Source of the DNA: Eubacteriales bacterium | GTDB lineage: Bacteria; Bacillota; Clostridia; Lachnospirales; Lachnospiraceae | NCBI GenBank assembly: GCA_030526715.1 | Contig: JAUNCG010000003.1 | Span: 16,947-80,946, forward strand | Length of the DNA stretch: 64,000 nucleotides | Reading direction: 5' to 3' | In this document: positions 9,664 to 24,932 of the stretch, piece after piece | Numbering within the stretch: the stretch's first letter is position 1 | Layout: each line of letters starts with the position of its first letter | Notes under the pieces: model-generated | The model's input: only the letters and a program-made list of their open reading frames with translations | Told to the model about the DNA's origin: nothing | Databases searched by the model: none | Made by a program: the position numbers and the translations under genes

Positions 9664-9717
9664 AGATACCATAGCAGTAAATGAGTTGGGTAAATGCTGA
9701 TACAGGAGGAAGATGCT

Positions 9718-10890
9718 ATGGATGTAAATCGCGTTTTTGTGATCGTATTAGATAGCTACGGGATCGGGCATGCGCCGGATGCTGCGGCATTTGGAGATGA
9801 AGGGGCGAATACCCTCGGGACAATTCGCAGGTCGGAAAAATATCATACACCGAATATGGAGAAGCTTGGATTATTTTGCATTGACGGTGTAGAGCCAATG
9901 GCTGATCAGCCGGAGTTGATCGGAAGCTACGGCAGACTTTGCGAGGCATCCAAAGGGAAAGATACTACGATTGGTCACTGGGAGATCGCAGGCATTATTT
10001 CGGAAAAGCCGCTTCCGACCTATCCGGATGGATTTCCGCGAGAGGTGCTGGAAGCATTGGAGAAGGCGACGGGACGAGGAATTCTGTGCAACAAGCCTTA
10101 TTCGGGAACGGATGTAATCCGCGACTATGGAGATGAGCATGTGAAGACAGGGAAGCTTATCGTCTATACCTCTGCGGACAGCGTGCTGCAGATCGCGGCG
10201 CATGAGGAGGTGGTTCCGCTGGAGGAGCTGTATGAGATCTGCCATAAGGCGCGAGAGATCATGTTGGGTGAACACAGTGTTGGTCGTGTCATTGCGCGTC
10301 CTTTCGTGGGTGAGAGTGGAAATTATACCAGAACTCCCCATCGCCACGATTATTCTCTGAACCCGCCCGGACAGACCATGATGGATGCTATCGTGGAGCA
10401 TGGGCTGGATACGCTGGGTGTGGGTAAGATCTACGATATTTTTGCGGGAAGAGGCATCTGCAAGACGATCAGCATTGAGAACAATGTGGATGGTATGAAT
10501 AAGACGCTGGAGTTTCAGAAGGAAGATTTTCACGGACTTTGCTTCGTGAATTTGGTAGACTTTGATATGCTGTACGGTCATCGCAACGATATCGATGGAT
10601 ATGCCAATGCAGCGACGGTATTTGACGGACAGCTTGGAGAATTTATGAGCAGGATGCGTGAGGATGATGTGGTCATCATCACCGCTGATCATGGCTGTGA
10701 CCCGGGCTTTAAGGGGACAGACCACAGTAGAGAATGCATTCCGGTGCTGATTTACGGAAAAGCCGTAAAAGCAGGCGTGAATCTGGGGACAGAGCATACC
10801 TTCGCCAACATCGGAGCCTCCGTGCTGGATATGCTCGGGGTACCGGGCGAGATCCGCGGGGAGAGCTTCTGGAAGAAGATCTGTAGGTGA
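9718..10890 (+). CDS. deoB: Phosphopentomutase
   Basis: Interconverts (deoxy)ribose 1-phosphate and (deoxy)ribose 5-phosphate using Mn2+ in the cytoplasm. 390 residues, usual length. Alkaline-phosphatase-superfamily metal motifs are visible: VLDSYGIGHAPDA at the N terminus with the following EGANTLG segment, VNLVDFDMLYGHRND, and ITADHGCDPGFKGTDHSRE. The ATG at 9718 is 7 bases from AGGAGGA; the ORF extension from 9694 lacks such a site. With cdd and pdp downstream it feeds pentose phosphates into central metabolism or to DeoC, encoded at 22469. Confidence 0.95.
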   Translation: MDVNRVFVIVLDSYGIGHAPDAAAFGDEGANTLGTIRRSEKYHTPNMEKLGLFCIDGVEPMADQPELIGSYGRLCEASKGKDTTIGHWEIAGIISEKPLPTYPDGFPREVLEALEKATGRGILCNKPYSGTDVIRDYGDEHVKTGKLIVYTSADSVLQIAAHEEVVPLEELYEICHKAREIMLGEHSVGRVIARPFVGESGNYTRTPHRHDYSLNPPGQTMMDAIVEHGLDTLGVGKIYDIFAGRGICKTISIENNVDGMNKTLEFQKEDFHGLCFVNLVDFDMLYGHRNDIDGYANAATVFDGQLGEFMSRMREDDVVIITADHGCDPGFKGTDHSRECIPVLIYGKAVKAGVNLGTEHTFANIGASVLDMLGVPGEIRGESFWKKICR

Positions 10891-10962
10891 TCGGATCGAA
10901 TTCATGGCGGGAATGCACAGTATCATGGCACGCTCGCAAAGCGCGGGGAAAGGAGGATGTGT

Positions 10963-11406
10963 ATGGAAATAAAAGAGATGATTCGACTTGCATTTGAAGC
11001 GCGCGAAAAAGCGTACACTCCATACTCGGGATTTAAGGTAGGAGCTGCACTACTGGCGAAAAACGGAGAGGTATATCAGGGCTGTAATATTGAAAATGCA
11101 GGTTATACCCCCACAAACTGTGCGGAGCGTACGGCATTTTTTAAAGCAGTGTCAGAAGGAATCATGGAGTTTGAGCGTATTGTGGTCGTCGGCGGAGCGG
11201 AAGGAACAGAGATGGGGGAATTTGACCTCTGTCCTCCCTGTGGCGTGTGCAGACAGGTGATGCGGGAATTCTGTGATCCGGACAGCTTTGAGATCATTCT
11301 TGCCAAATCGGAGGAAGAATATAAGAGCTATCTGTTGAGGGAGATTCTGCCTCTTGGATTTGGACCGGATAAGCTGCTGAGCAGCTATTCGGTTATGAGT
11401 AAGTAG
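10963..11406 (+). CDS. cdd: Cytidine deaminase
   Basis: Deaminates (deoxy)cytidine to (deoxy)uridine. 147 residues, in line with small tetrameric CDAs. Zinc site residues are in NCAERTAFF (Cys and catalytic Glu) and PPCGVCRQV (two Cys). The ATG at 10963 lies 6 bases after AGGAGG; the ATG at 10957 touches that site and is unlikely. Lies between deoB and pdp, so the three genes probably form a pyrimidine-nucleoside salvage unit. Confidence 0.94.
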   Translation: MEIKEMIRLAFEAREKAYTPYSGFKVGAALLAKNGEVYQGCNIENAGYTPTNCAERTAFFKAVSEGIMEFERIVVVGGAEGTEMGEFDLCPPCGVCRQVMREFCDPDSFEIILAKSEEEYKSYLLREILPLGFGPDKLLSSYSVMSK

Positions 11407-11410
11407 CGAA

Positions 11411-11465
11411 GCGGATTGCGAATATCCGCTTGACTATACGTATGAGAATAAAGGAAACTCTCATA
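11411..11465 (+). repeat. Two hairpins between cdd and pdp
   Basis: GCGGAT (11411-11416)/ATCCGC (11424-11429), and TATGAGA (11441-11447)/TCTCATA (11459-11465). Neither is followed by a T-run. They may tune expression between the two genes. Confidence 0.35.
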
Positions 11466-11499
11466 AAATGCAGCGTTATGAAACATGGAGGAAATCACT

Positions 11500-12822
11500 A
11501 TGAGAATGGTAGATTTGATTGAAAAGAAACGTGATGGAGGCGAGCTGGACGAACAGGAAATACGCTGGATGATCCGGGGCTATGTGGATGGCGAGATTCC
11601 GGATTACCAGATGTCGGCGATGCTGATGGCAATTTATTTTCAGGGAATGACAAAAAAAGAGACGTCCGTGATGACGGACGCAGTGACGCATTCCGGAGAT
11701 GTGGTGGATCTTTCGTCGATCCGTGGCGTGAAGGTGGATAAGCATTCTACCGGCGGTGTGGGAGATAAGACCACACTGGCTATCGCGCCGATCGTGGCGG
11801 CCTGCGGGGTAAAGGTGGCGAAGATGTCCGGAAGAGGCCTCGGACATACGGGCGGAACCGTGGATAAGATGGAGAGTATTCCGGGAATGCGGACAGATCT
11901 GAATGAGGAAGAGTTCTTTTCTGTGGTAAACCGTACCGGGATCAGCGTGATCGGACAGTCCGGGAATCTGACTCCCGCAGATAAGAAGCTGTACGCGCTT
12001 CGGGATGTGACTGCGACCGTCAACAGTATTCCGCTGATTGCAGTATCCATCATGGGGAAAAAGCTGGCGGCGGGCAATGATGCCATTCTGCTAGATGTGA
12101 CGACGGGAAGCGGCGCATTTATGAAGACGATGGAGGAAGCGGTGGCATTGGCGAAGGAGATGACAGCCATCGGTGAGAGCGCCGGGAAGCGTACCGTGGC
12201 GCTGATTACGGATATGGATCAGCCTCTGGGAAATACCATCGGTAATATTTTAGAGGTGCAGGAGGCAGTGGAAATCCTGCGAGGCGGCGGTCCGAAGGAT
12301 CTTCAGGAGGTATGTCTGGCGCTGGCGGCCGATATGCTTTTTCTGGCAGGACAGGGGGATATGCAGACCTGTCGTGATAAGGTGCATGAGGTGATACGAG
12401 ATGGTCGTGCTCTGGAAAAACTCGTCGAGATGGTGGAAGCGCAGGGCGGCGACAGCAGCTATATTCGTGATACAACGAAGTTCCCGAAGGCGCCCTATGA
12501 GACAGATGTCCTTGCAGACAGGGACGGCTATATTGTACATATGAATGCGCAGGAATGCGGTGTGGCATCCTCCATGCTGGGAGCGGGTCGTGAGACAAAA
12601 GAGAGCGTTATTGATATGACGGCAGGTATCGTGCTTTTGAAAAAGACCGGAGATGAGGTCAAAAAAGGTGATGTGCTCGCCAGACTCTATACCTCGCAGA
12701 AGGAGCGTCTGGAGGGGGCGTCAAAACGTTATCAGCAGGCGATCGAGATCGGTGAAAACCGCCCGGAGCACAGAAAAGAGATCCTTGCGAGGGTTGAGAA
12801 AGAGGAAGTAGTATATTTTTAA
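11500..12822 (+). CDS. pdp: Pyrimidine-nucleoside phosphorylase
   Basis: Phosphorolyses uridine, thymidine or deoxyuridine to the base and (deoxy)ribose 1-phosphate. 440 residues. The thymidine-phosphorylase family signature is present as KHSTGGVGDKTTLAIAPIV followed by KMSGRGLGHTGGTVDKMES. The C-terminal biotin-carrier-like domain is present (KTGDEVKKGDVLARLYTS). The ATG at 11500 has GGAGG upstream; the ATG at 11485 precedes that site. The product sugar phosphate is the substrate of DeoB. Length and context favour Pdp over narrow-specificity DeoA, but specificity is inferred. Confidence 0.92.
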   Translation: MRMVDLIEKKRDGGELDEQEIRWMIRGYVDGEIPDYQMSAMLMAIYFQGMTKKETSVMTDAVTHSGDVVDLSSIRGVKVDKHSTGGVGDKTTLAIAPIVAACGVKVAKMSGRGLGHTGGTVDKMESIPGMRTDLNEEEFFSVVNRTGISVIGQSGNLTPADKKLYALRDVTATVNSIPLIAVSIMGKKLAAGNDAILLDVTTGSGAFMKTMEEAVALAKEMTAIGESAGKRTVALITDMDQPLGNTIGNILEVQEAVEILRGGGPKDLQEVCLALAADMLFLAGQGDMQTCRDKVHEVIRDGRALEKLVEMVEAQGGDSSYIRDTTKFPKAPYETDVLADRDGYIVHMNAQECGVASSMLGAGRETKESVIDMTAGIVLLKKTGDEVKKGDVLARLYTSQKERLEGASKRYQQAIEIGENRPEHRKEILARVEKEEVVYF

Positions 12823-12896: not shown

Positions 12897-13820
12897 TCAA
12901 TGATCAGCAAGAAAAGCATCAACTTCTGTACGTGTCGGCATAGAAGGAGTGGTTCCTAATTTCTGAACGGAAAGTGCAGCGGTGGCATTTGCAAATCTTG
13001 CGGCATCCCATTCACTGTACCCTTCGGAAAGTGCGGTGAGAAATCCACCGTTAAAGGCATCGCCGGCTCCGGTAGTATCCAGTGCGTCTACGTGAAAAGC
13101 AGGAACTATTTCCTGACGACCGTCAGCTGAAATAAAAACGCCTTGCGAGCCCATGGTGATCAATACTTTTTCCACTCCTTTATTGTGGAACACTTCAGCA
13201 GCTTTTTTTGCGCCTTCAAGATTTTTTACTGGAATACCGGTCAATTCTTCGGCTTCCACTTCGTTAGGTGTAACCATATAGACTTTAGATAAAAACTCAT
13301 CGGAAATAGGAGCGTATGGAGCAGTATTTACGATGACTTTGGAACCATAACGATTAGCAAGCTCGATAATCCTTTCGTTTGCATCTTGATTTACTTCCAA
13401 TTGAAGAAGGACATAGGCGGCATCCTTGATAAAGTTTATCGTGCGGTCTGTATCTTCTTTAGTAATGGTTGCGCATGCACCGGGAACGATGACGATTTCA
13501 TTTTCGCTGGTGTTTTGATCCACCAGAATGAGTGCGATGCCGGTGTCAGTATCATCGGCAAAGAAAATACCGTCTTTGGGCATTCCTAATTCTGTCATGG
13601 TATTCAGTGCAACATCTGCAAAGGAATCGCGTCCCAGCTTGGTGATCATAGTCACGTTGGCACCGGTCTTATGGGCGGCAACGCATTGGTTGAATCCTTT
13701 GCCGCCCGGTCCCATTTTGAAGAAGGAGCCCTTTACTGTTTCGCCCGAAATTGGCAGATGAGGGGTACGCCCCATCAGATCGACGACAAAACTTCCGAAA
13801 ACTACGATTTTCTTTTTCAT
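12897..13820 (-). CDS. Ribokinase / PfkB-family sugar kinase (leftward arm)
   Basis: Phosphorylates a pentose-like sugar with ATP. About 307 residues. Landmarks are FGSFVVDLMGRTPHLP, the glycine-rich GPGGKGFNQCVAAHK, and the catalytic anion-hole segment DTTGAGDAFNGGF with the base Asp. The ATG at 13820 starts MKKKIVVFG and fits other ribokinases; a longer upstream start would overlap the aldolase gene. It is the last gene of a five-gene leftward operon with DhaK-like, DhaL and aldolase genes, so its substrate may be ribose, deoxyribose or a rarer sugar. A second ribokinase is encoded at 24933. Confidence 0.9.
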   Translation of the reverse strand: MKKKIVVFGSFVVDLMGRTPHLPISGETVKGSFFKMGPGGKGFNQCVAAHKTGANVTMITKLGRDSFADVALNTMTELGMPKDGIFFADDTDTGIALILVDQNTSENEIVIVPGACATITKEDTDRTINFIKDAAYVLLQLEVNQDANERIIELANRYGSKVIVNTAPYAPISDEFLSKVYMVTPNEVEAEELTGIPVKNLEGAKKAAEVFHNKGVEKVLITMGSQGVFISADGRQEIVPAFHVDALDTTGAGDAFNGGFLTALSEGYSEWDAARFANATAALSVQKLGTTPSMPTRTEVDAFLADH

Positions 13821-13839
13821 ATCAAATCCTCTGTGCAAA

Positions 13840-14688
13840 TCAGAACTTAGAAAGCTCCAGCTTTTTGACAAGATAATTCATTAAGATTTCCTGTGCGTAT
13901 CTGGCATAATCAAAGATAGCGCCGCCATCTGGATGCTCCTGAGTGTACTGTTTCATGGTATCGTGATATAAGTGGAAAAATTCTGTTCCGACATTAAACT
14001 TGTTAATACCGTGTAAAAATGCCTCATTCAGTTGGTCGTCTGGAATGCCACTTCCGCCATGAAGGACGAGTGGAGTGTCAATAGTGTCGTTGATCTCACG
14101 CAGACGTTGAATATCAAGATGCGGAGTTTCTTTATATACTCCGTGTGCGCTTCCGATAGCAACTGCGAGTGCGTCAGCGCCGCTCTCGGTTACATATTTC
14201 TTAGCTACTTCCGGCTTTGTATACATATCAAGATTGGACTGATCATCACGATTTGCGGCGAAACCGACATGTCCGAGTTCTCCTTCTACTGCAACATTGA
14301 ATGCATGAGCAATCTCGGTTACCCTTTTGGTGTTTGCGATATTTTCCTCCAGCGGAAGCATGGAACCGTCGTACATAACACAGGAAAAACCGGCCTTGAT
14401 CGCGCGGATGATGTAGTTGATATCCTGACAGTGGTCGAGATGCAGGCCGACCGGAACGGATACTTCTTCGGCAACACTTTTTACTGCTGCGGCAAAAGTC
14501 TCTGGATTACACCAGTTATTCAATTCTGCGTGTTCCGGATATAACATGCAGAGAACCGGTTTATTTACTTTCTCAGCAGCATGTACTACGGAGTCGATCA
14601 TGTTATAGTCGATACAGTTGAATGCAATTACAGATGTGTTAGCATCGCTGGCCATTTTAAGAATTTCTTTTACAGGTACAAGTGACAT
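13840..14688 (-). CDS. Class II (zinc) ketose-bisphosphate-type aldolase
   Basis: Predicted zinc aldolase of 282 residues in the FbaA/GatY/KbaY family, which cleaves a ketose phosphate to dihydroxyacetone phosphate and an aldehyde. The catalytic Asp85 and zinc His86 are in GLHLDHCQD; Glu137 in EGELGHVG, His182 in GSAHGVYK and His210 in LHGGSGIPD complete the usual active site. It lies 19 bases before the ribokinase gene and downstream of dhaL, so it probably acts on the product of one of these kinases. Substrate length and stereochemistry cannot be read from sequence; fructose-1,6-bisphosphate is less likely in this context. Confidence 0.88.
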   Translation of the reverse strand: MSLVPVKEILKMASDANTSVIAFNCIDYNMIDSVVHAAEKVNKPVLCMLYPEHAELNNWCNPETFAAAVKSVAEEVSVPVGLHLDHCQDINYIIRAIKAGFSCVMYDGSMLPLEENIANTKRVTEIAHAFNVAVEGELGHVGFAANRDDQSNLDMYTKPEVAKKYVTESGADALAVAIGSAHGVYKETPHLDIQRLREINDTIDTPLVLHGGSGIPDDQLNEAFLHGINKFNVGTEFFHLYHDTMKQYTQEHPDGGAIFDYARYAQEILMNYLVKKLELSKF

Positions 14689-14740: not shown

Positions 14741-15382
14741 TCAAGCTTCGGCAGTGAAACTCTCTGCAAGCGCTTTGAAAATAATAGTTACGGATACAGC
14801 TCCGGTATCCGGATGCCCGATCGTCTTTTCGCGAAAATTTTTGGAGCGCCCCATCCGGGAAATCATGGCCTTGGTGTTCTCCATTCCGCAGACAGATGCT
14901 TTTGCGGCTTCGTTAAGCGCGGATTCAAAAGAAAGATGTTCAACGACAGAATGCTTCAGTGATTCGGATGCCTCGATCAAAGCGTCATACATGGTTTTGT
15001 CGCCGCGATTTACACGACCACGTTTTTGGATGGCTTCGGTTCCTCCGCTGATGTATGCGGAAAAATCGGCTAGCGTCAAGGATTCCTTTGATTCGATTGC
15101 GGAAAGTCCGCCGATAAAAAGTGTGCCGAAGATAACACCGGAAGTACCGCCCATTACACGGATCAGTGTCATACCTGCTTCGTGAAGCAGATGATAGGGC
15201 GACTCATAGGTCATAACGGAAAGTTGTTTGTGAAGCGCTGTGAATCCGATGCGCATCCCAATGCCGTGATCGCCATCGCCGATGACGGTATCCAGCTCTG
15301 TAAGCATGGGTTCTGCCTGAATAATAGAATCACAGACATGAAGAAGCGCGGATTTTAATTGCGCTGTGGTAATATCATGCAT
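14741..15382 (-). CDS. dhaL: Dihydroxyacetone kinase subunit DhaL (nucleotide-binding)
   Basis: Binds ADP/ATP and transfers phosphate to the substrate held by DhaK. 213 residues, usual length. The Mg-nucleotide Asp cluster is intact in LDTVIGDGDHGIGM, and MGGTSGVIFGT, RVNRGDKTMYDAL and GHPDTGAVSVTII match conserved DhaL blocks. It follows two DhaK-like genes, so it is likely their partner. No DhaM (PTS-linked) subunit is in the window, so the phosphate donor is open: either a PTS protein elsewhere or ATP directly. Confidence 0.92.
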   Translation of the reverse strand: MHDITTAQLKSALLHVCDSIIQAEPMLTELDTVIGDGDHGIGMRIGFTALHKQLSVMTYESPYHLLHEAGMTLIRVMGGTSGVIFGTLFIGGLSAIESKESLTLADFSAYISGGTEAIQKRGRVNRGDKTMYDALIEASESLKHSVVEHLSFESALNEAAKASVCGMENTKAMISRMGRSKNFREKTIGHPDTGAVSVTIIFKALAESFTAEA

Positions 15383-15410: not shown

Positions 15411-16379
15411 TTATAAGATGAAAGATTCTGTATAAATCCGTTTGCTCAGATAGTTTTCCACGGATTTGTCCGCACAGAGAAGTGTAACGGAAAAACCATA
15501 CGAAATATCCATGCGAAGATAGTGTCCGGCACTGGTCTGCTTGATCGGATGCACGGTGCTTGCATACTGATGAAAATACTTTACAAAGGAAAATAAATCT
15601 TCGTAAAGCGTGGAAAATGTTCGACTGACGACTAAGTGAAGATTTTCATCTTTACAGGGCTTCAGATCCTGATAAAGATAATTGTACGCAAGCTTTACGG
15701 AATCTTGAAGCGTGAAACAATTTTGATGGATGATACGGGCTTTTTCTCCGGAAATACCTTCGCCAAGCATGATAGTCTGATTTTGAAAATCGTATGTAAC
15801 ATTTAGGCTGCTCATGCGATTGCCGACGTGAGAAAGCAAACTTGCTATTTCATCTAGGGACTGTCCTTCTTTTGCGGCAGCCGAGGCAATCTTGGTAGTT
15901 AAAAGAGAACCGCCGATCAATCCTGTGCGTTCGTCGCGCGGAGCATTTGCATCGACAGACAGACAATCGTCATGTACAGGTACGAGACGACCGCGATAAC
16001 CCTCTAATTCTAATAATTCCAGAGCAAGATCATTGTTTAGTCCGTCTCCCATGAAATTGTTGTAGATTAGGATGTATCCGTGCGGGCTGTTGATATATTT
16101 GGCTGCTTCGTAAATATCGTAGGCGCTTGGTGCAGCACATGGACCGCCGTTAATCCCGACATCACAAAAATCTTCTCCGGTAGGAAAACCGACGGCAAAA
16201 GGACCACCAAGTCCGCCGGCGCTGGTAATGATATTTACACGATTAGCATGAATGGGGTTGTGTAAAAGAGCTCGTCCGTTATATGAGGATTTAAGCGTCT
16301 GTACACGATCGGGATAGATCAATGCCATGCCATCGATGCAGTCTTTTGTAAGGCGATCCGGATTGGTCAGATATCCCAT
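15411..16379 (-). CDS. DhaK-like protein A, missing both substrate-binding histidines
   Basis: 322-residue paralogue of the substrate-binding subunit of dihydroxyacetone kinase. The fold is recognisable: ITSAGGLGGPF replaces the canonical SGGGSGHEP, NNFMGD keeps the catalytic Asp (Asp112), and GEGISGEK replaces GIHGEPG. So the covalent-hemiaminal His is Ser210 and the second active-site His is Gly59. The gene is full length without frameshift, so this is not simple decay. Start ATG 16379 follows AGGAGGTGG by 5 bases. It lies 28 bases before dhaL and 35 bases after DhaK-like B. It could bind a different ketose non-covalently, act as a heteromeric partner, or be a sensor; function is unknown. 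Confidence 0.82.
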   Translation of the reverse strand: MGYLTNPDRLTKDCIDGMALIYPDRVQTLKSSYNGRALLHNPIHANRVNIITSAGGLGGPFAVGFPTGEDFCDVGINGGPCAAPSAYDIYEAAKYINSPHGYILIYNNFMGDGLNNDLALELLELEGYRGRLVPVHDDCLSVDANAPRDERTGLIGGSLLTTKIASAAAKEGQSLDEIASLLSHVGNRMSSLNVTYDFQNQTIMLGEGISGEKARIIHQNCFTLQDSVKLAYNYLYQDLKPCKDENLHLVVSRTFSTLYEDLFSFVKYFHQYASTVHPIKQTSAGHYLRMDISYGFSVTLLCADKSVENYLSKRIYTESFIL

Positions 16380-16413
16380 TTTTTCCACCTCCTGTTTTGG
16401 AAAATGTGTTTGG

Positions 16414-17370
16414 TTATAGAGTGATCGGTGAATCTTCTATCCAGAATGGCTGCAGTATATCATCGACGCAGAGCATACTGACGAAAAAGCCGTGTGTATT
16501 TAGAAGATAAGTATAATAATCAATGTTGATATCAGTAATTTGATGAAGGTGTGAAGCGTATTTTCTGATCTCATTTGTAAAAATATAGGCTTCTTCGCAG
16601 CGGGTCTGTTCCAGTCGGCTGACCAGAATACTGAGTTTGTTTCCGGATTGTGGCAGCAGATCGGAGGTTAAGAGATCATATACTGTTGATGCAGCCTGAC
16701 TCATATGAAAACGATCGGGATAGGTCAATACCGGAGGCTCTCCGGAAAAACCGTTTCCCAGACAGATTGCATGCTGATGAAAATCAAAAGTGATGGTTAC
16801 GGAGCTGATGCGATCGTTAGCATGTAGAAGAATACGGTGAGTTTCATCGAGCGTTAATCCTTTGCGCACACAGACGGAACCGATCTTAAGTAAATAAAGC
16901 AAGCCTGTGAGCCCGGTTCGTTCGTGACGGGGAGTGCCGGCAGGAACGGAGAGGCAGTCATCGGTACAGGGACAGAGCCTGCTTTCTATATTCTCAAGAT
17001 GAAGCAGCTCACATGCAAGATCGTTGTTGAGATAGTCACCCATGAAGTTGTTATAAATAAGAATGCTTCCCTTGTCTCGACCGATGGCCTTCGCAGTTTC
17101 ATAAATATCGTAAGCGCTTGGAGCGGAGCGGATATTTCCGTTGACGGAAGCATCAGCCAGTTCTTTGCTCAGATATCCGGCGGACAAGGGGTAACACCCG
17201 CCTCCGCTGCTGACAATGAGTCGCACCTTGTGCTCCGGAAGATTTCTGCGAATCAAGACTCCTCCGTTGTGGGAGGTGTTGAGTGTCCGGTATTTTTGAG
17301 GATAAAGTGCGGCTAAACTGTCGATGCAATCGCGAGTGAGAGTATCGGTTTTGGTTAAATATTGATCCAT
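16414..17370 (-). CDS. DhaK-like protein B, missing both substrate-binding histidines
   Basis: 318-residue tandem paralogue of DhaK-like A and first gene of the leftward operon. Shared blocks with A include RSAPSAYDIYETAK, ILIYNNFMGDYLNNDLA and DDCLSV. The catalytic-loop Asp is kept (Asp112 in NNFMGD), but the GGGSGHEP block is SSGGGCYPL and the GIHGEPG block is GNGFSGEPP, so the hemiaminal His is Ser209. Start ATG 17370 has GAGGTGA upstream; an in-frame GTG at 17382 is less likely. The promoter is at 17408-17436. Possible roles: a heterodimer with A, an alternative ketose kinase, or a regulatory pseudo-subunit. Confidence 0.8.
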   Translation of the reverse strand: MDQYLTKTDTLTRDCIDSLAALYPQKYRTLNTSHNGGVLIRRNLPEHKVRLIVSSGGGCYPLSAGYLSKELADASVNGNIRSAPSAYDIYETAKAIGRDKGSILIYNNFMGDYLNNDLACELLHLENIESRLCPCTDDCLSVPAGTPRHERTGLTGLLYLLKIGSVCVRKGLTLDETHRILLHANDRISSVTITFDFHQHAICLGNGFSGEPPVLTYPDRFHMSQAASTVYDLLTSDLLPQSGNKLSILVSRLEQTRCEEAYIFTNEIRKYASHLHQITDINIDYYTYLLNTHGFFVSMLCVDDILQPFWIEDSPITL

Positions 17371-17407
17371 ATGCTCCGTCACCTCATTTTCCTTAATAAT
17401 TAATTTG

Positions 17408-17436
17408 AATATATCATTTTAGAATATCAAAGTCAA
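17408..17436 (-). promoter_or_regulatory. Promoter of the leftward dhaK-like operon
   Basis: On the minus strand, -35 TTGACT (17431-17436), 17-base spacer, -10 TATATT (17408-17413). The start point is near 17401, about 30 bases before the first start codon. Confidence 0.72.
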
Positions 17437-17450
17437 GATAGATAATAACA

Positions 17451-17496
17451 AAAACGAAAGCAAATAAAATCAACAAAGAAATGTTTGTTTTCGTTT
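17451..17496. promoter_or_regulatory. Probable DeoR operator pair (inverted AAACGAAA..AAA elements)
   Basis: AAAACGAAAGCAAA (17451-17464) and TTTGTTTTCGTTT (17484-17496) are inverted copies of one element, AAACGAAARCAAA. DeoR-family operators often contain CGAAA/TTTCG elements. The pair lies between the divergent promoters, just upstream of the leftward -35. Confidence 0.55.
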
Positions 17497-17600
17497 GAGT
17501 GTGAAAGAAGGGGTTAGGTCAATATGCTGCAAAAATATAAACACAAACTGTGAAAAGCGTCAAAATGACAAATATTAAAAGAAAAAATATTAAAATACTA

Positions 17601-17629
17601 TTGACATTTTATGAAAAGTGGGATAGATT
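17601..17629 (+). promoter_or_regulatory. Promoter of the deoR-ABC transporter arm
   Basis: -35 TTGACA (17601-17606), 17-base spacer, -10 TAGATT (17624-17629). The leader is ~120 nt and carries further CGAAA elements. Confidence 0.6.
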
Positions 17630-17705
17630 TAGTGCATAAAGAAAAGAAAATGAAATTTGAAACGAAATGAAAGGAAAATATCAAGAGAAATAAAACAAAA
17701 GCATT

Positions 17706-17721
17706 CGAAATAACGTTTTCG
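17706..17721. promoter_or_regulatory. Second operator-like dyad in the deoR leader
   Basis: CGAAA (17706-17710), six bases, TTTCG (17717-17721): a symmetric dyad using the same CGAAA element as 17451-17496. A further half site AACGAAAT is at 17661-17668. Together they suggest autoregulation, perhaps by looping. The rest of this 384-base divergent region is AT-rich with no other feature seen. Confidence 0.45.
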
Positions 17722-17754
17722 TAAGCCGGAGGGACTTGATAACTAAAGCAGGAT

Positions 17755-18522
17755 ATGTTTACGGATGAACGACAGGAAAAGATAGAGCAGTATATTTTAA
17801 AAAATGATTCGGCAAGTGTACAGGAATTGAGTACGCTGTTTTCTGTATCAGAAGTTACGATACGGAAAGATCTGGAGGAGCTTCAAAAAGGAAACCGAAT
17901 CGTACGTACCCACGGTGGGGCAAGAGTAAAATACTCAAATTCATCGTTATTTTATTTTCAGGATCTTGTAGTGAAATGTCCTGAGGAGAAACATATCATT
18001 GCGCAAAAGGCACTGGAATTTATAGAGGATGGAGACACGATTTTCCTGGATGGCTCTACTACTACGAATGAACTGGCTTTTCTGATTCAGGACAGTGATT
18101 TGAAGGAATTGAAGGTGATTACCAGTTCGCTGTCGGTGGCGATGCTGTTTCAGGAGAATGAATCATACTCGGTTATGGTAATAGGCGGTTCTCTGAATAA
18201 GAGAATGAACACTGTGGAAGGGGCTTTTATGGAGCTGCAGATGTCGTATCTGACAGTAGAGAAAGCGTTCATAGGAATCAATGGAATTGATGCTGAGTTT
18301 GGGTTTTCAACATCGGAAGTTACGGAAGCATCGGCAAAAAGGGCAATTTGCCGCTCGGCCAATCGCTGTTTTGTCATGGCAGATCACACAAAGTTTAATA
18401 AAAGGTATTTTATAAAGGCTTTTGATATAGACGGCGGTGCAGATTATCTGATCACAAATGACAGGTCTGATCTGATAGATTATTCACCATATGAGGAAAA
18501 AATAAGCCTCATTTTGGCATAA
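17755..18522 (+). CDS. DeoR-family transcriptional regulator
   Basis: 255-residue sugar-phosphate-responsive repressor. The N terminus MFTDERQEKIEQYILKNDSA with SVQELSTLFSVSEVTIRKDLEEL is the DeoR helix-turn-helix. The C-terminal DeoRC domain includes FLDGSTTTNELAF, VIGGSLN and FIGINGID, and ends with the MADHTKFNKRYF segment. It lies between the two arms of the sugar locus and probably controls both. The ribosome-binding site is weak (GCAGG a few bases before the ATG), consistent with low expression. The inducer is probably a phosphorylated intermediate, but its identity is unknown. Confidence 0.9.
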   Translation: MFTDERQEKIEQYILKNDSASVQELSTLFSVSEVTIRKDLEELQKGNRIVRTHGGARVKYSNSSLFYFQDLVVKCPEEKHIIAQKALEFIEDGDTIFLDGSTTTNELAFLIQDSDLKELKVITSSLSVAMLFQENESYSVMVIGGSLNKRMNTVEGAFMELQMSYLTVEKAFIGINGIDAEFGFSTSEVTEASAKRAICRSANRCFVMADHTKFNKRYFIKAFDIDGGADYLITNDRSDLIDYSPYEEKISLILA

Positions 18523-18624: not shown

Positions 18625-19602
18625 ATGAAACTGAAGAAAATTGCAGCATCTACATTAGTTGGAGTTATGATGGTGACTTCACTGTCAGCAGTAGCGATGG
18701 CAGGAAACAGCAAACCTCTCGAGATTGAGGGTGATTTTTCTGAAATGAATTGGGGCTTTATAGTTGGATCTTATGAGCATGTGTTCTATCAGAAGGTTGA
18801 CGAAGGAATCCGTTTGGGATGTCAGGAGATCGGTTTGCAGGAGGATCAGTACAATATCACAGACTGTAATCTGGAAGCGGATAAGGCAATTAATGCGATT
18901 CAGAATTTCACAGCAAACAAATGTAACGCCATTGCACTTGCATGCAATGATGCAGCAGGCTGCGTACCGGGTATCAATGAGGCGGCAGCAAACGGTGTGG
19001 CAATGTTTAACTTTGACTCTAAGGCAGCAGATCTGACAAATGTTATTTCTTTCGTTGGTACAGACAATTTTCAGGGTGGTGTACTTGGCGGAGAAGAACT
19101 GATCAGATTGTCAGAGGACGGAGATACGGTAGCGATTATAGGCAATCCGGAATCAGTTTCTACACTGGATCGCGAGAATGGCGCACTTCAGGCGTTGGAA
19201 GAGGCAGATCGTAATGTGCTTTCAGGCTATAACTATGAAGGCGACGCAAACCGCGCACAGGAAATCATGGAGACGATCCTTGTAGCAAATCCGGATTGTG
19301 CAGCAGTATTCTGCGCAGGCGATCCGGCGGCAACCGGAGCTATGGCAGCGATTAAGGCGGCAGGTTCTGACTGTAAGGTCGTTGGATTTGATGGAAATCC
19401 GGAAGCGCTTGAAGCTATGCTTGATGCAGAGAACGGCAAGACATGGGTATCCGAGATCGCACAGGATCCTGTTGGTATCGGCAGAGGTATCGTTGAACAG
19501 ATGGCGAAATATTTCACCACAGGTGAAGTTGATGATCAGGTTATCATGATCAATCCGTATATCATCACTGCTGAAAATGCAGCAGAGGAGTTGGGTAAAT
19601 AA
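18625..19602 (+). CDS. Sugar ABC transporter substrate-binding protein (RbsB-like)
   Basis: Extracytoplasmic receptor for a monosaccharide or similar ligand, 325 residues. A Sec signal peptide covers residues 1-26 (MKLKKIAASTLVGVMMVTSL, ending AVAMAGN) with no lipobox cysteine, as in livJ. The mature part shows the Peripla_BP_4 pattern: NWGFIVGSYEHVFYQKVDEG, CNAIALACNDAAG, FVGTDNFQGG and KVVGFDGNPEAL. ATG follows AAGGAGG by 8 bases. Followed by a strong hairpin and then the ATPase and permease genes. The ligand is unknown; genes downstream suggest a pentose, deoxypentose, tetrulose or polyol. Confidence 0.9.
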   Translation: MKLKKIAASTLVGVMMVTSLSAVAMAGNSKPLEIEGDFSEMNWGFIVGSYEHVFYQKVDEGIRLGCQEIGLQEDQYNITDCNLEADKAINAIQNFTANKCNAIALACNDAAGCVPGINEAAANGVAMFNFDSKAADLTNVISFVGTDNFQGGVLGGEELIRLSEDGDTVAIIGNPESVSTLDRENGALQALEEADRNVLSGYNYEGDANRAQEIMETILVANPDCAAVFCAGDPAATGAMAAIKAAGSDCKVVGFDGNPEALEAMLDAENGKTWVSEIAQDPVGIGRGIVEQMAKYFTTGEVDDQVIMINPYIITAENAAEELGK

Positions 19603-19693: not shown

Positions 19694-19776
19694 TTATGAA
19701 AAGAAGGTTCAGTGTCACCGATGAGCGGTGTCCGTGCTCGCTGGCATTATAGAAAACAACGAAAGGAATGAAGAAA

Positions 19777-21267
19777 ATGGAAGCTTGTTTACAGGTAAAA
19801 AACATCTCCAAGACCTTTCCCGGTGTAAAAGCACTTACAGACATCAGCATTGATTTTTATCCCGGAGAAGCACATGCGCTTGTTGGAGAAAATGGTGCCG
19901 GAAAGTCAACTCTGATAAAAATAATTGCATCTGTATATACGGCAACGGAGGGAAAGATATATTTAGAAGGAAAGGAATGTACATTTAAATCACCGAAAGA
20001 GGCATTGGATGCAGGGATTTCTGTTATTCAGCAGGAACTTAGCATTGCACCAGATCTGACGGTTGCGCAGAATATTTATCTTGGGTGCGAACCGCGCAAA
20101 GGTATTTGCCTTGATTATAAATTAATGGAGAAGAATGCACAGAAGGTTCTTGATGAAATGGGATTGTCCATTGATGTGAAAGCCTATTGCCGTGATCTGT
20201 CGGCGGCAGAACAACAGATGGTTGAGATCGCCAAGGTAGTATCGAAAAATTCAAAAGTAGTGATTTTGGATGAGCCGACATCTTCACTTTCTGAAAAGGA
20301 GATCACATCATTGTTCCGACAGGTTCAGAGAATGAAGGAAAAAGGGGTTGCCCTGATTTATGTAACACACCGTATGAAAGAATTGTTTGAAATCTGCGAT
20401 CGTGTCACAATATTCCGCGACGGTTGCAAAACAAAAGAAATGATGATCAAAGATACGAATGAAAAAGAAATCGTAGCGAATATGATCGGAAGAGAGAATC
20501 TGACAGATTATTATAATCGTCACAAACATACAATCGGAGAAGAAGTATTCCGCGTAGAAGACTTTTCTAGTGGAAAGCTTTTTCAGAATATTAATTTTCA
20601 TCTTAATAAAGGAGAAATTTTAGGTTTTTATGGTCTGGTAGGAGCAGGCCGGACGGAGACGATGGAGGCTATTTTTGGTGCAACGACACATGAAAGCGGT
20701 AAAATGTATCTCCATGGAAAAGAAATTGTTTTCCGTAAACCGTCAGATGCGATAGCGAAAAAGGTCGGTTTTGTGACGGAGGATCGTCGACGTACGGGGT
20801 TACTTCTTGAAAAGGCTATTTCAGAAAATATTGGTCTTCCCAGTCTTTTAGCACATGGACACAGAGGGCTGGTGAATACGAAATGGGAAGCGGATGTATC
20901 GTCGGAATATAAAGAAAAGCTGGCGATCAAAGCGCCTGATATATCAAGTATTACGTCCACCCTTTCCGGTGGTAATCAGCAAAAAGTGATCCTTGCAAAG
21001 TGGCTTGCAGCCAATTCGGAGATTCTGATATTGGATGAGCCAACTAGAGGAATTGATGTAAATGCGAAATCGGAGTTCTATTCACTAATGTACAAGTTTG
21101 TGGAAAACGGCGGATCGATTATCATGATTTCTTCGGAAATGCCGGAAATCATCGGTATAGCGGATCGTGTATATGTTATGCGTGAGGGCAGGATCAGCGG
21201 AGAACTCGAAGCAGATGAATTATCTGAAGCATCGTTGATTGGAGCAGCAAGTATTACCTCTGCATGA
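19777..21267 (+). CDS. Sugar ABC transporter ATPase, tandem domains (RbsA/MglA-like)
   Basis: About 496 residues with two fused ATPase domains. Domain 1: Walker A GENGAGKST, RbsA-type signature DLSAAEQQMVEIAKV, Walker B VVILDEPTSSLSEKE. Domain 2: atypical Walker A region GLVGAGRTETMEAIFG, signature TLSGGNQQKVILAKWL, Walker B ILILDEPTRGIDVNAK. This asymmetry is normal for the family. The ATG at 19777 is 9 bases after AAAGGA; an in-frame ATG at 19768 is too close to that site. It energises the permease encoded 36 bases downstream. Confidence 0.93.
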   Translation: MEACLQVKNISKTFPGVKALTDISIDFYPGEAHALVGENGAGKSTLIKIIASVYTATEGKIYLEGKECTFKSPKEALDAGISVIQQELSIAPDLTVAQNIYLGCEPRKGICLDYKLMEKNAQKVLDEMGLSIDVKAYCRDLSAAEQQMVEIAKVVSKNSKVVILDEPTSSLSEKEITSLFRQVQRMKEKGVALIYVTHRMKELFEICDRVTIFRDGCKTKEMMIKDTNEKEIVANMIGRENLTDYYNRHKHTIGEEVFRVEDFSSGKLFQNINFHLNKGEILGFYGLVGAGRTETMEAIFGATTHESGKMYLHGKEIVFRKPSDAIAKKVGFVTEDRRRTGLLLEKAISENIGLPSLLAHGHRGLVNTKWEADVSSEYKEKLAIKAPDISSITSTLSGGNQQKVILAKWLAANSEILILDEPTRGIDVNAKSEFYSLMYKFVENGGSIIMISSEMPEIIGIADRVYVMREGRISGELEADELSEASLIGAASITSA

Positions 21268-21303: not shown

Positions 21304-22296
21304 ATGAAAGAAATAAAGGTCAAAAAAATAATTTCGAATAATGTGATAGTTGTATTTCTAGTGTTGCTGTGCTTATTTTTCGGCATCATGAATACGAACT
21401 TTTTCTCAAGTATAAATGTTATGAATCTTTTGTCCCAGATGTGTGTAAATGCATTACTGGCCTCGGGTCTGTCCTTTGCCATTATTCTTGGCGGTATTGA
21501 TATTTCCGTAGGATCGCAGATGGCGGTAACGGGCGTTGTGGCAGCGCTGATCGCATCCAAGGTGGGGCAGATGAACTCTCTGACAGCGTTATTTATTCTG
21601 ATCCTGTCAGCGATAGTAATAGGTGTGATCATTGGCGGAGTGATCGGCAGTTTGATAGCATATGGTGGTTTGATCCCCATGATCTGTACACTGGCATTTT
21701 TGACGATACTCAGAGGTCTGGCCTATATCATCAGTGGAGGCGGTCCGATCTATGGACTGGATTCTAATTTCGGATGTCTCGGGGCAAAGCGCCTGATCGT
21801 TACCGGGAATTTTCCAAACGGTATGATTCCGACGAGTGTAATTTTTACGGTTATCATTGTATTTATCATGCACTTTATTCTGTCAAAGACGATTTTCGGA
21901 CGGCACGTTTTTGCCGTTGGCTCAAATAAAAATGTGGCGCATCTGGCAGGTATTGATGTAAAAAAAGTAACACTGATCAGCCATATGCTCTGTTCTGTCA
22001 CGGCATGTATGGCGGGTGTGGTTACGGCATCTAAATTACAGAATGGTCAGCCGAATATTGGTGAAGGATACGAGATGTTTGCGATTGCTTCCTGTGTACT
22101 TGGCGGTACTTCCCTAAATGGTGGACGTGGCTCTGTTGCGCGTGCGATGTTTGGCGTAGCAGTGATTGCAGTCATTAATAACGGAATGAATCTTCTGAAT
22201 ATTTCCGCTTACTGGCAGAAGGTCGTTATTGGCACGATCATCATCATCGCGGTGCTAGCAGATACCTTACAGCAAAAGCGCACGCAGAAAAACTAA
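21304..22296 (+). CDS. Sugar ABC transporter permease (RbsC-like)
   Basis: Membrane subunit of the importer, 330 residues with about ten hydrophobic segments. RbsC-family landmarks include ILGGIDISVGSQMAVTGVV, GGLIPMICTLAFLTILRG, GRHVFAVGSNKNVAHLAGID, SCVLGGTSLNGGRGS and WQKVVIGTIIIIAV. It is the last gene of the transporter set. The following 112 bases hold no clear gene before the promoter of deoC. Confidence 0.93.
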   Translation: MKEIKVKKIISNNVIVVFLVLLCLFFGIMNTNFFSSINVMNLLSQMCVNALLASGLSFAIILGGIDISVGSQMAVTGVVAALIASKVGQMNSLTALFILILSAIVIGVIIGGVIGSLIAYGGLIPMICTLAFLTILRGLAYIISGGGPIYGLDSNFGCLGAKRLIVTGNFPNGMIPTSVIFTVIIVFIMHFILSKTIFGRHVFAVGSNKNVAHLAGIDVKKVTLISHMLCSVTACMAGVVTASKLQNGQPNIGEGYEMFAIASCVLGGTSLNGGRGSVARAMFGVAVIAVINNGMNLLNISAYWQKVVIGTIIIIAVLADTLQQKRTQKN

Positions 22297-22408: not shown

Positions 22409-22437
22409 TTGACAAACATAAAGGGAAGTATCATAAT
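22409..22437 (+). promoter_or_regulatory. Internal promoter before deoC
   Basis: Consensus -35 TTGACA (22409-22414), 17-base spacer, -10 CATAAT (22432-22437). It would let deoC-dhaK-dhaL-rbsK be expressed independently of the transporter genes. Confidence 0.7.
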
Positions 22438-22468
22438 ACTACTAAATAAATTATTGGAGGAAATAGAA

Positions 22469-23128
22469 ATGCAGCCAAAAGAAATGTTACATTATGTAGA
22501 TCATACATTATTAAAGCCAACTGCGACATGGGAGAGCATTAAGCATCTATGTGATGAGGCGATAGAGTTTCAGACCGCATCGGTATGTATTCCGGCGTGC
22601 TATATTAAGAGAGTGCATGATACTTATGGTGAGAAGATCAATATCTGTACAGTTGTCGGTTTTCCGCTGGGCTACAGCGTGACGGAGGCGAAGCTTGTGG
22701 AGACACGTCAGGCGCTGGCAGACGGTGCAAACGAAGTGGATATGGTGGTAAATATTACAGATGTGAAAAACGGTGATTTTAAAGCGGTTGAGGAAGAAAT
22801 CGCAGCGCTGAAAAAAGAAGTGGGAGATAAGATTCTGAAGGTTATTATTGAGACCTGCTATCTGACAGAAGAAGAGAAGATCGCACTTTGTAAAGCTGTA
22901 ACCAATGCAGGCGCAGATTTTATTAAGACATCAACGGGCTTTGGTACTGGAGGCGCAACATTGGAAGATATTTTGCTGTTTAAGAAGAACATCGGACCAA
23001 ACGTGAAGATGAAGGCAGCAGGCGGTGTGCGTAGCATAGAAGATCTGGAAGCGTTTATTGAAGCCGGATGTGCGCGTGTGGGTACCAGTTCTGCTGTAAA
23101 ACTGGTAAAAGAAGTATTAGATAAATAA
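22469..23128 (+). CDS. deoC: Deoxyribose-phosphate aldolase
   Basis: Cleaves 2-deoxyribose 5-phosphate to acetaldehyde and glyceraldehyde 3-phosphate. 219 residues. The Schiff-base Lys153 is in FIKTSTGFGTGGA, the proton-relay Asp92 in EVDMVVNI and Lys182 in MKAAGGVRS; DHTLLKP at the N terminus is typical. The ATG at 22469 follows TTGGAGG. It has its own promoter. It may serve deoB/pdp products, or the sugar imported by the neighbouring ABC system; DeoC relatives acting on other aldols exist, so the locus substrate is open. Confidence 0.93.
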   Translation: MQPKEMLHYVDHTLLKPTATWESIKHLCDEAIEFQTASVCIPACYIKRVHDTYGEKINICTVVGFPLGYSVTEAKLVETRQALADGANEVDMVVNITDVKNGDFKAVEEEIAALKKEVGDKILKVIIETCYLTEEEKIALCKAVTNAGADFIKTSTGFGTGGATLEDILLFKKNIGPNVKMKAAGGVRSIEDLEAFIEAGCARVGTSSAVKLVKEVLDK

Positions 23129-23139
23129 CAAAAGCTGAG

Positions 23140-23181
23140 GAAATCCTGACAGGGCATAGAGAGTGGCGCTGTCAGGATTTC
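23140..23181 (+). terminator. Hairpin between deoC and dhaK
   Basis: GAAATCCTGACAG (23140-23152) pairs perfectly with CTGTCAGGATTTC (23169-23181). The following T-run is broken (TGTGCTTTTG), so it is probably a leaky terminator. Confidence 0.6.
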
Positions 23182-23215
23182 TGTGCTTTTGAAAAAAATA
23201 AAGGAGAAAAAGAGT

Positions 23216-24208
23216 ATGAAAAAAATTATGAATCGTGCAGAAGACTACACAGATGAGATGCTCAGAGGTATTTACGAGGTACATCGGGGGAGAGTGAAAT
23301 GTGCTGCAGATGATCTGAGATGCTATTGCACGGCAGAGAAGGTGGAAGGCAAGGTTGCCATCGTTACGGGAGGCGGAAATGGTCATCTTCCTTTATTTTT
23401 GGGCTATGTCGGAAAAGGAATGCTGGATGGATGCGGTGTTGGAGATGTATTCCAGTCGCCTTCCGGAAAACAGATTTATTACATTGCGAAGGAAGTGGAA
23501 GCGGGAGCGGGAGTCCTTTTTCTATATGGAAATTATACCGGAGATATTATGGTGTTTGATGATGCTTCGGAACGTCTGGAAATGGATGATATTGAGACGA
23601 TGTCTATTGTTGGGGCGGATGATGTGAACAGCAGTGATGATGTGAATGTTCGTCGTGGTGTGGCGGGAATTTTCTTTATGTACAAAGCAGCGGGAGCGAG
23701 AGCAATGTCAATGGGGAATCTTCAGGAGGTTTATGATGCGGCCCAGAAGGCCAAAGAGAATACCCGGACGGTAGGATTTGCACTGACACCGTGTATTATT
23801 CCTGAGAAAGGCAAACCGAATTTTGAATTACAGGAAAATGAAATGGCGATGGGTATGGGAATTCATGGAGAGCCCGGAGTCTGGAATGGACCGATCATGA
23901 CATCATCAGAGATTGCAAAAGAGAGTTGTGATACGATTTTAAAAGATATGGAAGTAAAAGAGGGCGAGGAAGTTGCAATTTTGATCAACGGTCTTGGAAG
24001 TACCCCTTTGGATGAACAGTATATTCTTGCAAATGACGTCATTTGCTATTTAAATTCCAGAGGGATCCGGGTTTACAGAAGCTGGGTTGGTGAGTTTGCA
24101 ACCAGTATGGAAATGGCAGGTGCATCTATCACAGTATGCAAAGTAGATGAGGAATTGAAAGCGTGGTTTGAGATGCCGGTGGATACGCCGTTTTATAAAC
24201 AGAACTGA
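23216..24208 (+). CDS. dhaK: Dihydroxyacetone kinase subunit DhaK, canonical active site
   Basis: Substrate-binding subunit for phosphorylation of dihydroxyacetone or a related short ketose such as erythrulose. 330 residues. All key residues are present: TGGGNGHLPLFLGYVGKGML (His57), NYTGD (Asp110) and GMGIHGEPG (His217, the hemiaminal His). ATG 23216 follows AAAGGAG by about 9 bases. It is directly upstream of a divergent dhaL, and the pair is the conventional counterpart of the unusual DhaK-like proteins on the leftward arm. PHLPLFLGY-type differences from E. coli DhaK make a non-DHA ketose plausible. Confidence 0.88.
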   Translation: MKKIMNRAEDYTDEMLRGIYEVHRGRVKCAADDLRCYCTAEKVEGKVAIVTGGGNGHLPLFLGYVGKGMLDGCGVGDVFQSPSGKQIYYIAKEVEAGAGVLFLYGNYTGDIMVFDDASERLEMDDIETMSIVGADDVNSSDDVNVRRGVAGIFFMYKAAGARAMSMGNLQEVYDAAQKAKENTRTVGFALTPCIIPEKGKPNFELQENEMAMGMGIHGEPGVWNGPIMTSSEIAKESCDTILKDMEVKEGEEVAILINGLGSTPLDEQYILANDVICYLNSRGIRVYRSWVGEFATSMEMAGASITVCKVDEELKAWFEMPVDTPFYKQN

Positions 24209-24238
24209 TGATATGATTCAAAAATGGAGAGGAATATT

Positions 24239-24877
24239 ATGGAAAGGATAACGATAGAACAGCTGCCGGCACTTTTTCGCTCAATTGCGTTACAGTTTGA
24301 AAAAAATGAGGAATTATTGTGTGAGATGGATAGTCGGATGGGAGACGGTGATCTTGGATTAACCATGAGAAAAGGATTCTGCGCTATGCCAAAGATACTT
24401 GAGGAAATGGATGAATCGGATTTTGCAAAAAAAATTCGCAAAATTGGAATGGAAATGACAGATATTGTTCCGTCTACCATGGGAATGTTGATGGGAACCG
24501 GAATTGCATTCGGAGGAAAAAATCTTGCGGGGAAAGACGGTATGGATGCAGAAGGTGTTGTTCTGTTTCTTGAAGGATATAGTGCAGGAATTGTGAAACG
24601 CGGAAAATGTGAGCGTGGAGACTGTACCGTGTTGGATGCCATTGCTGCTGCAGCGGATGAAGCAAGAAAAGCGGCCGAGGAAGGAAAAAATCTTGCCGGT
24701 GTATGTGTAGCGGCGCGGGATGGAGCGGAGAAAGGAGCTGAAGCAACCAGAGAAATGTTGCCGAAATTTGGGAAAGCAGCCGTACACAGAAATGTTGCGC
24801 TAGGGGTCATGGATCAAGGTGCAATGGCCGGATTGCTTTTTGTAAAAGGGCTGACAGATTATATTTTAAAGAAATAA
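24239..24877 (+). CDS. DhaL-type kinase subunit (divergent)
   Basis: 212-residue nucleotide-binding subunit partnered with the DhaK just upstream. The Asp cluster is present as DSRMGDGDLGLTM, with Leu where DHA-specific DhaL proteins usually have His. The GGxSG block reads STMGMLMGTG and the PGDKT block reads CERGDCTVLDA, so it differs clearly from the DhaL at 14741. Such divergence is known in kinases acting on tetruloses, but the substrate here is inferred only. Start ATG 24239 follows GAGAGGA. Confidence 0.85.
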   Translation: MERITIEQLPALFRSIALQFEKNEELLCEMDSRMGDGDLGLTMRKGFCAMPKILEEMDESDFAKKIRKIGMEMTDIVPSTMGMLMGTGIAFGGKNLAGKDGMDAEGVVLFLEGYSAGIVKRGKCERGDCTVLDAIAAAADEARKAAEEGKNLAGVCVAARDGAEKGAEATREMLPKFGKAAVHRNVALGVMDQGAMAGLLFVKGLTDYILKK

Positions 24878-24932
24878 AATTATTTTTTGTGAATAAAAGT
24901 TTGGTCTGGTCGGAGACGCAGATGGAGGAAAC

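Follow-up and report, generated by a model that had tools for sequence, protein, structure and literature searches.

Dihydroxyacetone kinases capture their substrate covalently on a histidine, a hallmark described for the human and Citrobacter enzymes (PMC6429413). Here we analyse a 64,000-nucleotide stretch of a Lachnospiraceae genome (contig JAUNCG010000003.1, positions 16,947 to 80,946; hereafter the window) that encodes, in tandem on its minus strand, two DhaK paralogues without this histidine, DhaK-A (16414..17382) and DhaK-B (15411..16388). In structural alignments they share 21–23% identity with the DhaKs of E. coli (3pnk/3pnl) and L. lactis (3ct4) and with the Citrobacter kinase (1un8/1un9). 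Unlike these, they have other residues at the places of the two substrate histidines, of Ser80 and of Lys104 (position 104 is Lys or Gly in our canonical set); genes for an aldolase and, often, a sugar importer accompany their subfamily, and EIIA-man was not found in the window's genome. Histidine-free DhaKs are a distinct, conserved and rare branch of the family, not an oddity of this genome. The best explanation of their function, which we consider probable with some reserve, is that of a ketose 1-kinase that uses ATP, binds its substrate non-covalently and supplies a ketose-1-phosphate aldolase.

Open reading frames, alignment and codons agree that the two genes are intact and that both proteins lack the substrate histidines while keeping the Asp, as the original prediction had stated. 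Both frames are full length and lie 25 bp apart. We number positions by E. coli DhaK, in which we take His56, Ser80, Lys104, Asp109 and His218 to have their customary roles; residues of DhaK-A and DhaK-B carry the numbers of their own reading frames. Alignments and re-read minus-strand codons place Cys63 of DhaK-A (17194..17196) and Gly61 of DhaK-B (16206..16208) at His56, and Asp116 of DhaK-A (17035..17037) and Asp115 of DhaK-B (16044..16046) at the kept Asp109. Ser213 occupies the place of the covalent His218 in both DhaK-A (16744..16746) and DhaK-B (15750..15752), by alignment and codon re-reading. The motifs APSAYDIYE and NNFMGDxLNNDLA are common to the two proteins, again as predicted. 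Homologues suggest that translation truly starts at the ATG at 17370 in DhaK-A, giving 318 residues, and at that at 16379 in DhaK-B, giving 322.

Profile and fold searches assign both proteins to the DhaK family, at scores below those demanded by the DhaK and DhaQ models. A search with PF02733, proposed with the original prediction, places both in Dak1 (135.6 bits for DhaK-A and 114.2 for DhaK-B, cut-off 31.4). Their scores fall below the cut-offs of the DhaK equivalog TIGR02363 (109.7 and 95.9 bits against 406.25) and of the DhaQ model TIGR02362 (73.3 and 61.1 bits against 413.25); a canonical DhaK of the window is likewise under the TIGR02363 cut-off, at 337.2 bits. The AlphaFold2 model of DhaK-A has a predicted local distance difference test score of 93.5, and its top Foldseek matches are the DhaK structures 3ct4 and 3pnk.

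The residue changes hold throughout the subfamily. Relatives outside the window came from a genome scan with two subfamily peptide patterns, a design that gives neither the frequency of the subfamily nor how often other DhaKs miss the histidines. We compiled 49 proteins, 47 from 44 outside loci and two from the window, selected through GDxLN(N/C)D and thus independently of the histidines; one protein running into a contig end (L037) was excluded. In their alignment no protein has His at position 56 or 218, and all 49 keep Asp109 and carry Ala in place of Ser80 and Asn in place of Lys104. Ser fills position 218 in 48 of them, Ala in the remaining one (L047). Position 56 is Cys in all six A-type and Gly in all eleven B-type proteins among the loci, and Val in four database relatives, three of them A-type (P0003–P0005). 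The alignment offers no substitute histidine, because no column exceeds 30% His in the 49 proteins and none reaches 80% in the six A or eleven B proteins; a pocket refilled by other conserved histidines, which would have undone the original prediction, was not found. The canonical comparison set (n = 21) was selected through the GIHGE motif, which itself guarantees 100% His218; beyond that, the set has His56 in 21/21, Ser80 in 20/21, and nine Lys and twelve Gly at position 104. Extra reading frames from L050–L068 were selected with a pattern permitting H or S at position 218. The protein database yielded 73 and 78 relatives, 105 together, 96 of them longer than 290 residues and nine shorter. 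Among the long ones 95, DhaK-A and DhaK-B included, have Ser at 218 and none has His at 56, where Asn (34), Gly (27) and Cys (14) are most frequent; the 96th (P0105) is a canonical DhaK. Seven A-type database proteins (P0006–P0012) do have a His one column past the His56 place (GGGCHPL), which is missing in the other 88 of the 95, DhaK-A of the window included.

Phylogeny separates this subfamily cleanly from canonical DhaKs. In a tree of 69 proteins, 48 subfamily rows part from 21 others with support 100/99; the others are canonical DhaKs, that of E. coli included, together with the protein of L051, and L035 was left out of this careful tree. The clade and the conserved gene module around it bear out the proposal of a distinct DhaK subfamily. 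The A+B tandem lineage forms one clade (100/99) containing a B clade (100/99) and a weaker A clade (93/87), a topology that makes A and B sister duplicates, the product of a duplication within the subfamily. L051 itself (G005:C9:72-1028), from another species of the same genus, is a DhaK lacking both histidines (GSGND, GGGFSGES) whose long branch (0.96) lies on the canonical side; it may have lost the histidines independently, a second time.

The subfamily is rare, and mostly single-copy. Among 391 genomes drawn class-wide and searched at E ≤ 1e-80, the window's own genome was the only one among the matches listed, which argues for rarity. The A+B tandem occurs in five genomes (the window, L005, L006, L008 and L011), where a ribokinase-like gene comes after the aldolase each time; as L005 and G004, a genome of the window's genus, give the same places, they are apparently one and the same. 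Two contigs that, to judge by their titles, belong to one metagenome-assembled genome (L007 and L014) carry one A-type and one B-type gene. The former (L007, 6929-7990) lies beside an importer with no DhaL or aldolase nearby, the latter with DhaL and aldolase on L014. The assemblies of L010, L012, L013 and L015, some of them metagenome-assembled and maybe incomplete, have a B-type gene but no A-type one. In the fetched DNA, 40 of the 44 outside loci hold a single copy; where labelled, loci of other branches come from Bacillota, Synergistota and one Treponema, with one copy each. The one genome pair compared, L008 and L011, gave dN/dS values of 0.147 for A and 0.045 for B, indicating purifying selection; given these low values, from that single pair, and the kept family-invariant residues, we reject degenerating pseudo-enzymes.

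Each histidine-free DhaK is typically accompanied by an orthodox DhaL. In the window the pair is followed by a normal DhaL, as first described (14741..15382, minus strand; PF02734, 163.9 bits), a predicted ATP-binding partner that scores 165.1 bits against TIGR02365 (cut-off 138.3) and keeps GDGDHG. All 42 DhaLs beside a histidine-free DhaK, the window's included, retain this motif, at the place of D35, D37 and His38 in E. coli DhaL, as well as the D30 ahead of it, with one neighbouring Ala/Gly difference; D30, D35 and D37 are presumably the metal-binding (Mg/ATP) residues. DhaLs beside canonical DhaKs in these loci read GDGDLG in 9/9, so it is the histidine-free DhaKs whose partner is the more orthodox. 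EIIA-man (PF03610) had zero matches in the window's own genome, which is 97.96% complete, and the control was positive in 5 of 14 genomes; a partner DhaM driven by the phosphotransferase system was thus not found in that genome, and the set does not qualify as DhaKLM.

The window also holds a canonical DhaK with both histidines (23183..24208, plus strand; PF02733, 360.7 bits), once put forward as an internal control. Its own motifs, GIHGEP and GGGNGHLP, suit that purpose; its partner does not, for DhaL2 (24224..24877, plus strand; PF02734, 120.5 bits) has Leu at the place of His38. DhaL2 reads GDGDLG rather than GDGDHG, shows a PST stretch where a GG(A/T/S)SG motif is expected and, at 97.1 bits, stays below the TIGR02365 cut-off. 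Because all nine such DhaLs share the Leu, the canonical DhaK–DhaL2 pair is possibly itself a variant.

The aldolase next to the kinase genes is predicted to act on ketose 1-phosphates. The window copy (13840..14688, minus strand; PF01116, 275.7 bits) and its counterparts, 37 module aldolases in all, keep HLDH, G(S/N/T)AHG, HGGSG and N(V/I)GTE. In 37/37, Tyr, Asp or Leu stands at the place of KbaY Thr50 and the C-terminal DP[RK] is missing; S/T50 and DP[RK] form the side that we take to hold the second, far phosphate in tagatose-bisphosphate aldolases. E. coli GatY and KbaY have kept Thr50 and DP[RK], as have five GatY-like neighbours, save for DQK in L036. The module aldolases have a loop of their own, ML(Y/D/L)P (37/37), and their own C-terminus (36/37). 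A cut aldolase in L013 stands outside the 37, and a second aldolase in L029 was assigned manually to the reference group of bisphosphate type. The window enzyme scores below the fructose-bisphosphate and tagatose-bisphosphate equivalogs (TIGR01859, 228.5 against 343.05; TIGR01858, 206.9 against 443.55) and above the cut-off of the broad cbbA subfamily (TIGR00167, 229.6 against 215.6). Elsewhere in the same genome, the class II aldolases L089 and L092 keep both far-phosphate features and one fragment keeps Ser50.

Kinase and aldolase genes travel together. We counted neighbours by BLAST against window or representative proteins at a coverage of at least 45%, with some contigs short. In 36 of the 44 outside loci the histidine-free DhaK, DhaL and aldolase genes lie on the same strand, DhaL ahead of aldolase each time, and a 37th has a cut aldolase. 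A DeoR gene stands between the DhaK and DhaL genes in some loci, and a canonical DhaK-DhaL pair between DhaL and aldolase in six. Four loci without the trio are cut by a contig end (L013, where the aldolase has begun, L034, L035 and L037). A DhaL gene is present in 41/44; L035 and L037 are cut inside the DhaK gene. Components of a ribose-type importer are frequent (binding protein 28/44, ATPase 35/44, permease 32/44), and a DeoR gene occurs in 24/44. Further neighbours are a tagatose-kinase-like PfkB (17/44; that of L005 scores 263.6 bits against the tagatose kinase model, cut-off 420), canonical DhaK (8/44, with a ninth cut off in L034), GatZ (6/44) and a ribokinase-like gene (5/44). Four loci (L030, L033, L044 and L045) add to the trio a CUT1 importer, a gene of ROK type, a class II aldolase/adducin gene and a rhamnulokinase-like FGGY gene, and each may hold two pairs of kinase and aldolase.

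Taken as a ketose 1-kinase, the module would work as follows. A ketose would enter through the ABC transporter and be held by DhaK-A and DhaK-B without a covalent bond, in a pocket enlarged by the replacement of His56, Ser80, Lys104 and His218. The equivalent of Asp109 would serve as general base, DhaL would supply the ATP site with ATP as donor, and phosphate would pass to O1, on carbon 1 of the ketose. The neighbouring aldolase would then split the ketose 1-phosphate into dihydroxyacetone phosphate (DHAP) and a free aldehyde. Because these proteins form a separate branch beside DhaL, an aldolase and often an importer, a larger imported sugar is a likelier substrate than dihydroxyacetone. Non-covalent binding of a different ketose is supported indirectly, as it fits the residues changed in 49/49 proteins and the neighbouring aldolase. 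Our leading guess for the sugar is a ketohexose, given the tagatose-kinase-like PfkB and GatZ genes near the module and the canonical DhaK-DhaL that joins it in some loci; in those eight loci the latter could take D-glyceraldehyde as substrate. A and B share one DhaL gene and may form either two homodimers or one heterodimer.

We also entertain, as a doubtful extension, a DhaK-only route resembling fructolysis in loci with both kinds of DhaK. Such loci would convert ketose to ketose 1-phosphate, this to DHAP and glyceraldehyde, and the latter to glyceraldehyde 3-phosphate. A rare branch found in at least three phyla would then have dropped covalent histidine capture, and in the window's lineage A and B would form a hetero-subunit enzyme.

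Several observations weigh against a ketose 1-kinase. An aldolase is missing next to the histidine-free DhaK in L007, L010, L041 and L047 though the contig continues, and L007 lacks DhaL as well. Only 7 of the 36 trio loci are free of another recognised sugar kinase in the fetched DNA (ROK kinases uncounted), so in many loci another kinase could supply the aldolase substrate. The aldolase pattern is not unique to the module, as L090 and L091, class II aldolases of the same genome, also lack both features; it suggests rather than proves a 1-phosphate substrate. Between the window and L005 the DhaKs share 60% and 68% identity and DeoR 66%, against 86% for the aldolase and 91% for the binding protein, and this quicker divergence of the DhaKs and DeoR could reflect relaxed constraint. 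Finally, the roles assigned to DhaK and aldolase positions are ones that we presume.

If another kinase does feed the aldolase, the histidine-free DhaK and DhaL could act after the aldolase step: a PfkB or FGGY enzyme would make the ketose phosphate, and DhaK-DhaL would phosphorylate the small aldehyde or ketone without covalent capture. The 17 loci with a tagatose-kinase-like PfkB, five with a ribokinase-like gene and four with a rhamnulokinase-like FGGY gene are consistent with this, and human TKFC, a DhaK relative, phosphorylates trioses (PMC6429413). We nevertheless judge such a role unlikely: seven trio loci show no other recognised sugar kinase in the fetched DNA, the obvious triose kinase, canonical DhaK-DhaL, is also there in eight loci, and the pocket changes would point to a larger ligand, not a smaller one. 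The PfkB kinases near the module in many loci would also allow DhaK-DhaL to be a sugar-phosphate 1-kinase that turns a PfkB-made 6- or 5-phosphate into a bisphosphate for the aldolase. This we hold to be highly improbable, as all 37 module aldolases lack the residues at the two positions presumed to bind the far phosphate.

Two further alternatives concern the paired DhaKs themselves. That A and B are an obligate heterodimer, one subunit catalytic and the other structural or regulatory, sharing one DhaL, draws on their adjacency, the single DhaL gene, their joint retention in five genomes, the one copy of each on separate contigs of a sixth (L007 and L014), and the split at position 56 between Cys in six A and Gly in eleven B (Val in the four database relatives). 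B-type genes without A in four assemblies, single copies in the loci of other branches, and the family's invariant residues, kept in both A and B, make it quite unlikely. As a feature of the subfamily the heterodimer falls away, because a single copy is the rule (40 of 44 outside loci, in the fetched DNA); in the five A+B genomes it may yet apply. The remaining alternative sees in A and B sensors of a ligand, an idea raised in the original prediction, or co-activators; like DhaQ, or like DhaK in its action on DhaR, they would signal the sugar level to DeoR. Regulatory DhaK folds do appear among the structural matches (DhaQ, 2iu4 and 2iu6; DhaR-DhaK, 4lrx), and 24 loci have a DeoR gene. Yet DhaL genes with catalytic residues kept accompany the DhaKs in 41/44 loci, DhaQ model scores reach only 73.3 and 61.1 bits against 413.25, and 20 of 44 loci have no DeoR in the fetched DNA, some contigs being short. 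We regard a sensor as very unlikely; it is disfavoured because 42/42 DhaLs keep the metal-binding Asp of a kinase, and as the leading interpretation a DhaQ-like sensor is rejected on account of the intact DhaL partner.

In the window, the kinase operon and the importer are likely under common control. The 372 bp between DhaK-A and DeoR (17383..17754) hold three TTTCGTTT/AAACGAAA sites, at 17452, 17489 and 17660 (TTTCGTTT on either strand), which we predict to be DeoR operators; one further TTTCGTTT site lies elsewhere between genes in the 64 kb, with open reading frames mechanically chosen. Their position between DeoR with the importer and the DhaK operon makes common control likely in the window. 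In 17 loci, the window included, DeoR is directly divergent from a histidine-free DhaK or a binding protein; at least one site is present in 11 of these and none in six. A scan for promoters and terminators found signals no commoner than in shuffled sequence.

The surrounding genes look like ones of sugar and nucleoside catabolism. On the minus strand, DhaK-A and DhaK-B are followed at short gaps by DhaL, the aldolase and a ribokinase of the PfkB family (12897..13871; TIGR02152, 320.6 bits against a cut-off of 299.65); past the ribokinase, on the opposite strand, genes resembling deoB, cytidine deaminase and pyrimidine-nucleoside phosphorylase (9694-12822) were recognised by eye. On the plus strand come the DeoR-family regulator (17755..18522; PF00455 and PF08220), the sugar-binding protein of an ABC importer (18625..19602; PF13407), its putative ATPase (19768..21267) and permease (21304..22296), a deoC-like gene, the canonical DhaK, DhaL2 and a second PfkB. 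ATPase and permease were assigned from neighbours and inspection by eye, and BLAST relatives occur in the related loci counted above. The binding protein has numerous weak matches among PDB sequences, ribose and allose binders included, which are not diagnostic of its sugar. After the importer the window has deoC, canonical DhaK, DhaL2 and the second PfkB (22409-25823); the corresponding place in L005, L006, L008 and L011 is taken by a tagatose-kinase-like PfkB. The host genome comprises 2.4 Mb in 133 contigs, and its three Dak1 genes all lie inside the window.

If our interpretation is right, a branch that lacks both histidines but retains DhaL and an aldolase would mean that the DhaK scaffold works without its covalent hallmark, and the module would be a compact, testable unit of sugar degradation. 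Few subfamily members carry a source name, and these are called 'dihydroxyacetone kinase subunit DhaK' or similar; such names would then misdirect attempts to reconstruct the pathways of bacteria from rumen and gut, the source of many loci by their titles. Among literature titles and abstract openings, a coverage that leaves out most subscription papers, we found no DhaK branch without the histidines.

Known systems resemble the module in parts. DhaQ (2iu4, 2iu6), which co-activates the dha operon of L. lactis, binds dihydroxyacetone and works with a TetR-type regulator. It is likewise a DhaK paralogue of the same fold, but DhaK-A and DhaK-B are accompanied by their own intact DhaL and score far under the DhaQ cut-off. 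The module aldolases share with GatY and KbaY the Pfam family and the HLDH, AHG and HGxS motifs; they differ in having lost the two positions that we presume to contact the far phosphate and fall under all equivalog cut-offs. E. coli YdjI, annotated as an octuluronate-1-phosphate aldolase, is like the module aldolases without S/T50 and DP[RK]; the annotation of its counterpart YdjH is that of a separate sugar kinase, which we take to be of PfkB type, unlike the DhaK-type kinase here. In loci with a canonical DhaK-DhaL, the logic would be that of the human triokinase/FMN cyclase and the mammalian fructose route, from ketose 1-phosphate through an aldolase to a DhaK-type triose kinase. The first kinase of the mammalian route is a PfkB-type ketohexokinase, whereas here it would itself be of DhaK type.

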